From Turicibacter bilis (lineage in GTDB: Bacteria > Bacillota_I > Bacilli_A > MOL361 > Turicibacteraceae), in contig NZ_CP071249.1 in assembly GCF_024499055.1 (NCBI RefSeq), positions 930,001 to 994,000 of the forward strand: a DNA stretch of 64,000 nucleotides, read 5' to 3'. Of the stretch, positions 42,743 to 54,450 are shown one piece after another. Each line of letters begins with the position of its first letter. The stretch's first letter is position 1. The position numbers and the translations under genes are program-made. A model generated the notes under the pieces. It ran no database searches. It had not been told where the DNA came from and saw nothing but the letters and a program-made list of their open reading frames with translations.

Positions 42743-43126
42743 TTACATAGCTATTTCTTCAATTTGTACTTCCTGATTCTCTAATTCGCTTCTTTGATCA
42801 CCAGTTCGAGTCTGGATAAATGATACTTTTTCTGCAACCACCTCTACTGCACGTAATGATTTATGATTAGGAATTTCATATGTTTTATGAACCAAACGTC
42901 CTTTAACACCGATGATAGCACCTTTACCACAATATTCAACGACGCTCTTAGCAATCCCTTCCCATAACGTAATATTGATGAAGTCAGTGTCATATTCACC
43001 ACTGGCTGCATTTTTAAAGGAACGCGTTACGGCCAGTGTAACAGTCGAAACTTTTTTCCCTTCTTGAGTTTGAATCAATTCAGGTTGGCGTACAACACGC
43101 CCAACTAACACAACATTATTTAACAT
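42743..43126 (-). CDS. ssb: Single-stranded DNA-binding protein
   Basis: 127 residues with an OB fold (MLNNVVLVGRVVRQPE, FINITLWEGIAKS, VKGRLVHKTYE). The tail is short and ends in EEIAM without the DDDIPF-type tip, as in the short SsbB/YwpH paralogs used in competence. The ATG at 43126 follows AGGAGAT; the longer frame adds 19 unrelated residues. Confidence 0.92.
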   Translation of the reverse strand: MLNNVVLVGRVVRQPELIQTQEGKKVSTVTLAVTRSFKNAASGEYDTDFINITLWEGIAKSVVEYCGKGAIIGVKGRLVHKTYEIPNHKSLRAVEVVAEKVSFIQTRTGDQRSELENQEVQIEEIAM

Positions 43127-43274
43127 ATCAATAATCTCCTTTAACTTCTTTATTTGTGCGCACTTATCTATATATACGCCCATCTTTTATAACTTCCTTT
43201 TATATTTTTTCTTTTTTCAAAAGAAAACGTGTTCATGTAAGTTTTCATAACTGAACACAGAAAGGACACATTAT

Positions 43275-43295
43275 TTTGTCGAATTTTGATATAAT
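43275..43295 (+). promoter_or_regulatory. Extended -10 promoter overlapped by a Spo0A box
   Basis: TTTGTCGAAT (43275-43284) matches the Spo0A box TTTGTCRAAW at all ten positions and ends five bases before TATAAT (43290-43295), which carries the TGn extension. No good -35 hexamer is seen. The predicted start is about 43302. Confidence 0.6.
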
Positions 43296-43301
43296 TTCAA
43301 A

Positions 43302-43501
43302 TGTATTCATGAACACCCCCCCGTTCATGCAATACATTCCTTTCATTATTGTTTTTCATTCCATTTTTAATTTTTTACATCCCCTCATCAAACAAACGTA
43401 TTGGGTTATGAACTTAGCAAACTTTTTTCGCTAAGTACCAATGCAACCTTATACTATTCCCCTCTCGGAGAACTGGTGCCCCCCACCAGTTCTCCTTTTT
43501 T
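43302..43501 (+). ncRNA. Candidate C-rich small regulatory RNA
   Basis: A ~200-base transcript is bounded by the promoter above and a strong terminator. It has three stem-loops: 43300-43338 (CATGAAC/GTTCATG plus an AATGTATT/AATACATT extension, loop ACCCCCCC), 43412-43436 (ACTTAGC/GCTAAGT) and the terminator at 43467-43501 (12 bp, loop CCCCC, six Ts). Unpaired TCCCC motifs occur at 43380-43384 and 43458-43462. No ORF of credible length. C-rich loops that pair with Shine-Dalgarno sequences define sRNAs such as RsaE of staphylococci. Confidence 0.65.
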
Positions 43502-52776: not shown

Positions 52777-52838
52777 AACACGTATATTCTGAATTTCCTA
52801 TTTAGCGATTGTAACGAATATACACTCTCTCTTAGTTT

Positions 52839-53011
52839 CCCTAGATTGTGCGTAAGGTGATTAGTTGTTGAATCCGAACATTTCTGATAAGGGAATCTGG
52901 TGTTCTAATACGGTGTTGAATGCCCAACATTGTTGGGACTCCTAATGTATTAGACAGGATACCCACCTGCTACCAAGCGGGTTTTTATCCTAACACCTAC
53001 GGCAATTTGGG
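52839..53011 (+). ncRNA. ssrS: 6S RNA, copy 1
   Basis: Closing stem: CCCTAGATTG with CAATTTGGG, then GTA-A-GGTG-A-TTAG with CTAACACCTAC (bulged As). The central bubble carries CCGAACATTTCTGATAAGGG on the 5' side and the ACCTGCT/AGCGGGT hairpin on the 3' side; the apical arm is CTAATAC/GTATTAG and CCCAAC/GTTGGG. The layout matches Bacillus 6S-1, whose 5' half also reads GTTAGTTGT ... CTGATA, and the gene sits beside tcdA (yrvM) as in B. subtilis. 6S RNA binds sigma-A RNA polymerase as an open-promoter mimic. Confidence 0.82.
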
Positions 53012-53020
53012 CAATTAAGA

Positions 53021-53353: not shown

Positions 53354-53378
53354 AGCTTTCCCCATGAAAAAGGTTATT

Positions 53379-53556
53379 CCTGAATGGTACGTAAAGTGAC
53401 TAACTTTTTAAATCCGAACATTTCTAATAAGGGAATCTGATTCTCAAATTCGGTGTTGAATGCCTAGCTTTTTCTACCTAGGACTCCTAAAGAATTTGAT
53501 AAGATACCCACCTGCTACTTAGCGGGTTTATACTCTAGCACTTACGGCCATTTGGG
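53379..53556 (+). ncRNA. ssrS: 6S RNA, copy 2
   Basis: Closing stem CCTGAATGG/CCATTTGGG (9 bp) and GTA-A-AGTG/CACTTAC. Compared with copy 1 both sides changed together (GGTG/CACC to AGTG/CACT), which supports the pairing. Bubble sequence ATCCGAACATTTCTAATAAGGG and the ACCTGCT/AGCGGGT hairpin are kept; the apical loop is CCTAG/CTAGG. An outer AGGTTAT/ATAACCT pairing (53371-53377 with 53565-53571) lengthens the stem. No intrinsic terminator follows directly. Confidence 0.82.
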
Positions 53557-53670
53557 TATCATTCATAACCTGCCCATTAACTAAGACTTTCCAGAACCAA
53601 TCATATTGATTTTGTTGGCCCGACATGTTAGGATATGTATCCGGTCATGAGTGACCCGAATCCAAAACAT

Positions 53671-53851
53671 CCTGGACTGTACGTAAAGTGATTAGTTCTT
53701 TAAATCCGAACATTTCTAATAAGGGAATCTGATTCTCAAATTCGGTGTTGAATGCCTAGCTTTTTTTTCACCTAGGACTCCTAAAGAATTTGATAAGATA
53801 CCCACCTGCTAATTTAGCGGGTTTACATCCTAACACTTACGGCAATTTGGG
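53671..53851 (+). ncRNA. ssrS: 6S RNA, copy 3
   Basis: Closing stem CCTGGACTG with CAATTTGGG and GTAAAGTG/CACTTAC; bubble, 3' hairpin and apical arm nearly identical to copy 2, suggesting recent duplication. A TTGTTG-N16-TATGTA promoter-like sequence lies at about 53612-53639 and a GGTCA/TGACC hairpin at 53643-53656. No clear terminator follows. Confidence 0.82.
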
Positions 53852-53967
53852 TCATTATATTCATTTAGATTACCTATAGATTAGATATGATGAAGCCACC
53901 AATTAAACATGAATTTCGCTTAATGATCATACAATTTAGAGAAGTTTTTAAAATATTAAATTAATAG

Positions 53968-54230: not shown

Positions 54231-54241
54231 CTAATCAAAAT

Positions 54242-54418
54242 CTGAGATATGCGTAAGGTGATTAGTTCTTTAAATCCGAACACTTTTGATAAGGGAATCC
54301 GATTCTCTAATACCGTGTTGAATGCCTAGCTTTTTCCACCTAGGACTCCTAACGTATTAGATACGATGCCCACCTGCTAATTTAGCGGGTTTATATCCTA
54401 ACACCTACGGTATTTTGG
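54242..54418 (+). ncRNA. ssrS: 6S RNA, copy 4
   Basis: Closing stem CTGAGATAT/GTATTTTGG and GTA-A-GGTG-A-TTAG/CTAACACCTAC; bubble AATCCGAACACTTTTGATAAGGG; 3' hairpin ACCTGCT/AGCGGGT; apical CTAATAC/GTATTAG as in copy 1 but the loop CCTAG/CTAGG as in copies 2-3. It has the clearest promoter and terminator of the set, so it is the most likely to be expressed on its own. Confidence 0.85.
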
Positions 54419-54450
54419 AGAAACACAAGCATTTGCTTGTGTTTTTTTAT
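54419..54450 (+). terminator. Terminator of 6S RNA copy 4
   Basis: AAACACAAGC, ATTT loop, GCTTGTGTTT followed by Ts. Confidence 0.92.

Follow-up and report, generated by a model that had tools for sequence, protein, structure and literature searches.

Among the small RNAs of low-GC Gram-positive bacteria, several use C-rich unpaired stretches against Shine-Dalgarno (SD) regions. In Listeria monocytogenes, the LhrC family (LhrC1-5, Rli22 and Rli33-1), controlled by LisRK, carries UCCC motifs in loop A, in a single-stranded stretch and in the terminator loop, pairs with SD regions and is encoded in several copies under LisR (PMC8079631, PMC4132741). The streptococcal csRNAs, which are controlled by CiaRH, are also several C-rich sRNAs, some of them in tandem, with the promoter repeat TTTAAG-N5-TTTAAG of 11-bp period (PMC8186281). 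RsaE/RoxS and FsrA of Staphylococcus and Bacillus direct unpaired UCCC or C-rich motifs against SD sequences, according to the part of PMC4132741 that cites them.

Here we describe a locus of Turicibacter bilis that is comparable to these systems in several respects. It lies in a window of 64,000 nt (G000:C1:930001-994000) of a 2.79-Mb genome (G000), which an initial annotation had read from its letters. The locus, called sRNA1, was compared among five Turicibacter species (G000-G004) and one sister genus of the same family (G006).

Results

A conserved C-rich RNA gene beside ssb

The sRNA1 gene (Table 1) is located between the divergent ssb gene and a convergent peptidase gene; the ssb side is constant in the six genomes and the gene on the other side is different in G006. 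The likely transcription start site, as judged from the sequence, is at 43301-43303. Read from the letters, two TCCCC motifs lie at 43380-43384 and 43458-43462, and the terminator stem-loop covers 43467-43495, with a C5 loop and T6 after it. The predicted fold (-48.0 kcal/mol, compared with -20.9 +/- 3.3 in 200 shuffles; z -8.3) leaves both TCCCC motifs single-stranded and puts the C runs into loops. Hence the C7 loop, the two unpaired TCCCC motifs and the C5 terminator loop of the initial annotation were all recovered in the letters and in the fold.

Table 1. Predicted features of the sRNA1 locus (window positions)
Feature	Coordinates	Strand	Evidence
ssb (single-stranded DNA-binding protein), divergent, outside the sRNA1 transcript	42743..43183	-	NCBIfam name; neighbour in 6/6 genomes
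Predicted operator of an activator, 11-bp direct repeat AACACA-N5-GACACA; 19 nt from its end to the -10	43254..43270	+	in 6/6 genomes
0A box TTTTGTCGAA, predicted Spo0A site, about -28 to -19	43274..43283	+	letters, alignment, motif statistics
Extended -10 TGATATAAT	43287..43295	+	invariant in 6/6 genomes
sRNA1 gene, predicted transcript of about 195-199 nt	43303..43501	+	fold, alignment, covariance model, covariation
5' hairpin with C7/C8 loop (C run 43316-43322)	43303..43335	+	12 pairs, 3 compensatory versus sister genus
Near-invariant linker, CU-rich and unpaired, containing ATTCC, CATTCC and ACATCCCCTCAT	43336..43398	+	alignment
Middle hairpin ACTTAGC/GCTAAGT	43412..43436	+	7 pairs, 4 compensatory
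Single-stranded invariant block, core TTATACTATTCCCCTCT	43447..43464	+	identical in 6/6 genomes
Intrinsic terminator, C5-C6 loop and T run	43467..43501	+	5/12 pairs compensatory

Among 40 relatives searched at the DNA level, the five Turicibacter genomes and G006 had homologues of equal layout. In the six-genome alignment, promoter and transcript are conserved and the DNA upstream of the operator is poorly so. Within the transcript, hardly any change is seen in the unpaired C-rich blocks, ACATTCCTTTCATTATTGTTTTTCATT, TTTTTACATCCCCTCAT and TTATACTATTCCCCTCT being identical across both genera, and the stems change yet stay paired: both sides have changed in 12 of 34 pairs (shuffle mean 3.9) and 97% of the alignment cells at pair positions pair, values that none of 500 shuffles equalled in either case. 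Conserved unpaired C-rich segments on covarying stems are the pattern expected of an RNA that exposes interaction motifs. Outside these two genera, the covariance model gave no credible homologue in 296 genomes of the class, three matches with E values of 0.003-0.006 being judged chance, and none was found in phages, plasmids or viral contigs. The sRNA1 strand had no Rfam match at the gathering or at a relaxed threshold, and Rfam searches of the window, the sRNA1 locus and the sRNA2 arrays (see below) gave no relevant family.

Synteny, covariation, invariant C-rich single strands, a transcription unit of its own and the lack of a conserved reading frame together strongly support the prediction that sRNA1 is a non-coding C-rich sRNA, and that it is a real RNA gene seems to us nearly certain. 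The non-coding transcript of about 200 bases that had been proposed initially is thus borne out as a predicted transcript: it is conserved in six genomes, covaries, has its own promoter and terminator and shares no ORF among them.

A predicted direct-repeat operator shared with spoVG and sRNA2

What controls this promoter? The extended -10 (TTTGATATAAT) is invariant in the six genomes and the -35 letters are weak. Upstream of it lies the direct repeat at 43254-43270, a feature absent from the initial description. Promoter and motif statistics were drawn from a 464-kb sample of G000, with gene starts called mechanically; the strict repeat occurs there three times, two of these occurrences being the sRNA1 promoter and spoVG. 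In the five Turicibacter genomes there are 61 matches against 21 with the reversed pattern, many of the 61 coming from sRNA2 arrays. The repeat precedes spoVG (identified by NCBIfam) in all five, with a -10 at 20 nt, as well as a PplA-like lipoprotein gene in two species, and the same operator with the same spacing stands before most copies of sRNA2, including that of G006.

Direct repeats of 11-bp period upstream of a -10 are found here as they are for regulons of OmpR-family response regulators, and the geometry would be that of an OmpR/PhoB-type regulator. An autoregulation check for the cognate regulator found nothing, since none of the seven PF00486 matches in G000 has a good repeat upstream, and NCBIfam gave no specific name to the OmpR-family response regulators of this genome. 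It is quite probable, from conservation and recurrence of the repeat, that the operator is functional. Through this shared element, the sRNA1 locus appears to be part of a small riboregulatory regulon with sRNA2 and spoVG. We rejected a sigma-H promoter at sRNA1: relative to the sigma-H consensus as generally known, the spacing from AAAGGA (-35-like) to GTCGAAT is about 3 nt too short.

sRNA2 and other non-coding RNAs

Reading the repeat matches uncovered a second C-rich RNA, sRNA2, whose layout comprises a hairpin TGTCTTGAAGAACAAGACA, a single strand CTACCCTAA, a hairpin with a TTCCCCC/TTCTCCCC loop, a single strand TTTTCATCCC...ATCATCCCC and a terminator. Rfam holds no family that matches it; 5 of its 22 pairs covary and the fold has a z of -6.0. 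The four complete Turicibacter genomes carry tandem arrays of 3-7 copies (three in G000, three in G001, seven in G003 and three in G004, which has a diverged fourth elsewhere), the draft G002 has at least two copies and G006 has one. The array of G000 is at L161 2087-2504 (G000:C1:289902-290503), others being at L162-L164, and in four genomes the arrays lie about 30-35 kb from spo0A. The diverged relative in G004 (L206 1501-1631, G004:C1:156566-156696) scores 38 bits and its promoter has no direct repeat. Homology between sRNA1 and sRNA2 through a shared TTTTCATYCC...CATCCCCT block was not significant against shuffles (p 0.16-0.26), and we therefore treat the two as distinct families that share an operator.

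Other RNA elements were noted on the way. The window contains four tandem 6S RNA genes on the plus strand (52835-53017, 53374-53562, 53666-53857 and 54236-54425; Rfam RF00013, 82-103 bits each), a high copy number on which we found no paper. In G000, AGACAGTTCATTCAGACCATCCTGTCTTTAAACAAAACTAGG lies upstream of queD/queE/folE-like genes (L161 ~2590-2640) and resembles a preQ1-I riboswitch; the region had no Rfam match at E<=1.

A predicted Spo0A site between operator and -10

All Turicibacteraceae genomes tested have spo0A, among them the five Turicibacter and G006. The perfect ten-base 0A box that had been reported directly before the extended -10 is indeed there, and its position, given initially as -27 to -18, becomes -28 to -19 with the start site at 43302. 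The box is conserved in the five Turicibacter, with TTGTCGAA identical while the preceding four bases vary; at this position G006 has ATCGACAAAC, an inverted 8/10 match, and no forward box. As G006 nevertheless keeps the repeat and the -10, the repeat is, in this alignment, the more constant of the two predicted control elements.

In G000 as a whole, TTTTGTCGAA is not in excess (31 occurrences, 43 for the reversed word). Its location is another matter, as 19 of 30 inspected sites fall between genes and the reversed control has 1 of 30 there (Fisher p 8e-7, which is optimistic, some of the controls being repeats of one element). A box 4-8 nt before TATAAT was found at 14 sites against 3 for the control in the six genomes, five of the 14 being the sRNA1 locus itself, and the 8-mer TTGTCGAA, on either strand, falls in 0.13% of the intergenic 19-nt windows of G000. 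In the five Turicibacter and in G006, the promoter of spo0A itself contains (A/T)TTTGTCGAA, near position -119 relative to the start codon. Upstream of spoIIE there is no good 0A box in four of five species. Taken as a predicted site, the Spo0A control put forward initially is supported by the box in all five Turicibacter, its intergenic enrichment, the spo0A promoters and the presence of spo0A; taken as the whole story it fails on G006. We lean towards direct binding of Spo0A at 43274-43283. On the sign of its effect we give repression even weight, going by geometry alone, since the box has the presumed activator on one side and the -10 on the other.

Perfect 0A boxes were also seen upstream of hpf, the gene of the ribosome hibernation factor (L086 1501, G000:C1:1474536), and between the divergent genes of an OmpR-type regulator and of spore photoproduct lyase (L092/L219, G000:C1:2433981). 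At a further place (L087 ~1500-1840, G000:C1:1607452), a 0A box is followed by TTTGTATAAC and by non-coding DNA that contains ACATCCCCCTATC and what may be a terminator; this could be a further RNA under the control of a box. As for SpoIIE, the Turicibacter proteins, of about 390-400 aa, match the C-terminal part of the family only (model positions 441-761; L210-L214).

Pairing of the C-rich segments with start regions

When compared with 380 start regions, the C-rich segments of sRNA1 favoured true start windows over shuffled windows, but dinucleotide shuffles of these segments paired at least as well. Composition suffices to give this pairing, and target specificity is not supported. In G000, AGGGGAATAG, the complement of the invariant CTATTCCCCT, stands directly before the start codon of three genes, encoding an SDR enzyme, a cysteine synthase and a NUDIX hydrolase; across genomes, the AGGGGAATAG and TGAGGGGATG complement patterns had matches at start codons that were not orthologous between species. 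The RsaE-type blocking of SD sites suggested by the initial annotation is plausible by composition; the pairing comparison lends it no target specificity, and the Rfam searches gave no homology to RsaE, LhrC or csRNA.

Discussion

Sequence comparison documents the sRNA1 gene with its structure and promoter, as well as the direct repeat and the 0A box. The model that we favour on balance is that of an sRNA resembling LhrC and the csRNAs, which a putative OmpR-type regulator activates at the repeat, which Spo0A~P represses and which pairs with ribosome-binding sites. An OmpR/PhoB-type response regulator would bind AACACA-N5-GACACA beside RNA polymerase and activate the extended -10 promoter. At the entry into sporulation or stationary phase, Spo0A~P would occupy the box between repeat and -10 and stop transcription of sRNA1. 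The exposed CCCC, UCCCC and CUAUUCCCCU stretches would pair with the G-rich SD regions of several mRNAs and block their translation, and the same operator would drive the multicopy C-rich sRNA2 and spoVG. Among these steps, an SD-type antisense action of sRNA1 seems likely.

The same RNA might also be made from a promoter that is driven only by the repeat activator and the extended -10, the 0A box being incidental and the TTTTG before TATAAT being kept for sigma contacts. The T-rich part of the box does merge into the -10 extension, the sRNA2 promoters have the repeat and no box at the corresponding position, and G006 keeps the repeat and the -10 but has no forward box. However, sigma-A does not need GTCGAA, which is invariant in five species though the four preceding bases vary; the motif is strongly intergenic and recurs in the spo0A promoter, and G006 has its inverted match at the very same place. 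We thus regard an incidental box as rather unlikely, and retain the 0A box as a probable Spo0A site.

As regards the RNA itself, intergenic elements are often leaders and ATG-led frames exist in it (41 aa in G000), so that one might imagine a leader or terminator element acting in cis, or a gene for a small protein, in place of a trans-acting sRNA. This is extremely improbable, since the downstream gene is convergent and not the same in G006, a strong terminator closes the transcript, C-run indels and an ATG-TAA in three species interrupt the frames, and the linkers are conserved at every base, which is not codon-like. Instead of pairing with mRNAs, the RNA could act through a bound protein, for which a ribosome-associated factor or an RNA-binding protein of the CsrA or SpoVG kind would be candidates. 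Its repeated C-rich loops and single-stranded segments would be well suited to titrating such a protein, the operator is common to spoVG, and SpoVG of Listeria binds several ncRNAs in vitro (PMC8079631). The invariant motifs nevertheless look like anti-SD sequences, a feature of sRNAs with demonstrated mRNA pairing (PMC4132741), and the loops have no GGA-type CsrA sites, which makes protein binding improbable beside antisense pairing. A further scheme, in which one response regulator, acting at one operator, co-induces two C-rich sRNA families (one of them amplified in tandem) together with SpoVG as their RNA-binding partner and Spo0A~P turns sRNA1 off, is doubtful; if it were true, the sporulation decision would gain a direct riboregulatory arm.

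Why would such a locus matter? Turicibacter is a common gut commensal, and both sRNA families are new to Rfam. If our reading of the promoter is right, the sRNA1 locus is a direct link between Spo0A, the switch of sporulation, and a C-rich sRNA, and the proposal that SpoVG is an RNA partner of Gram-positive sRNAs becomes testable through the operator that spoVG has in common with these RNAs. The copy number of sRNA2 (3, 3, 3 and 7 in complete genomes) offers a natural series for the amplification of sibling sRNAs. In the open-access literature, to which the search was confined, subscription papers being outside its scope, we found no paper on Turicibacter sRNAs and none on an sRNA under a 0A box or direct Spo0A control.

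At Spo0A-repressed promoters such as abrB of B. subtilis, the 0A box lies inside a sigma-A promoter and binding should block RNA polymerase. The sRNA1 box is likewise within a sigma-A promoter, but it stands between an upstream operator and an extended -10 and would control a non-coding RNA. With RsaE/RoxS and FsrA, sRNA1 has in common the unpaired UCCC or C-rich motifs; it differs from them in its control, and Rfam searches gave no match to them in sequence or structure. The csRNAs share with the Turicibacter RNAs the existence of several C-rich sRNAs, some in tandem, behind a promoter repeat of 11-bp period. The repeat itself is RACACA-N5-RACAYA and not the TTTAAG-N5-TTTAAG of CiaR, so only geometry is common, and the csRNA model reached only 20.6 bits, on the opposite strand, against a gathering threshold of 57.

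The resemblance to LhrC extends to the places of the C-rich/UCCC motifs (loop A, a single-stranded stretch and the loop of the terminator), to multicopy siblings under one response regulator, represented here by the sRNA2 arrays and sRNA1 with their shared operator and presumed regulator, and to SD pairing, which is proposed for sRNA1. It differs from LhrC in having no Rfam match, a greater length (about 195 nt), a third hairpin, longer C runs, an additional 0A box and a different bacterial lineage; the direct repeat differs as well, in a comparison for which PMC4132741 gives no LisR consensus. With an independent gene and conserved unpaired C-rich motifs, sRNA1 has the marks of the C-rich anti-SD sRNA class of low-GC Gram-positive bacteria. 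It is not a member of the LhrC or csRNA families by sequence and would be like them in its way of working, and the most unusual part of the system is the operator common to tandem sRNAs and spoVG.
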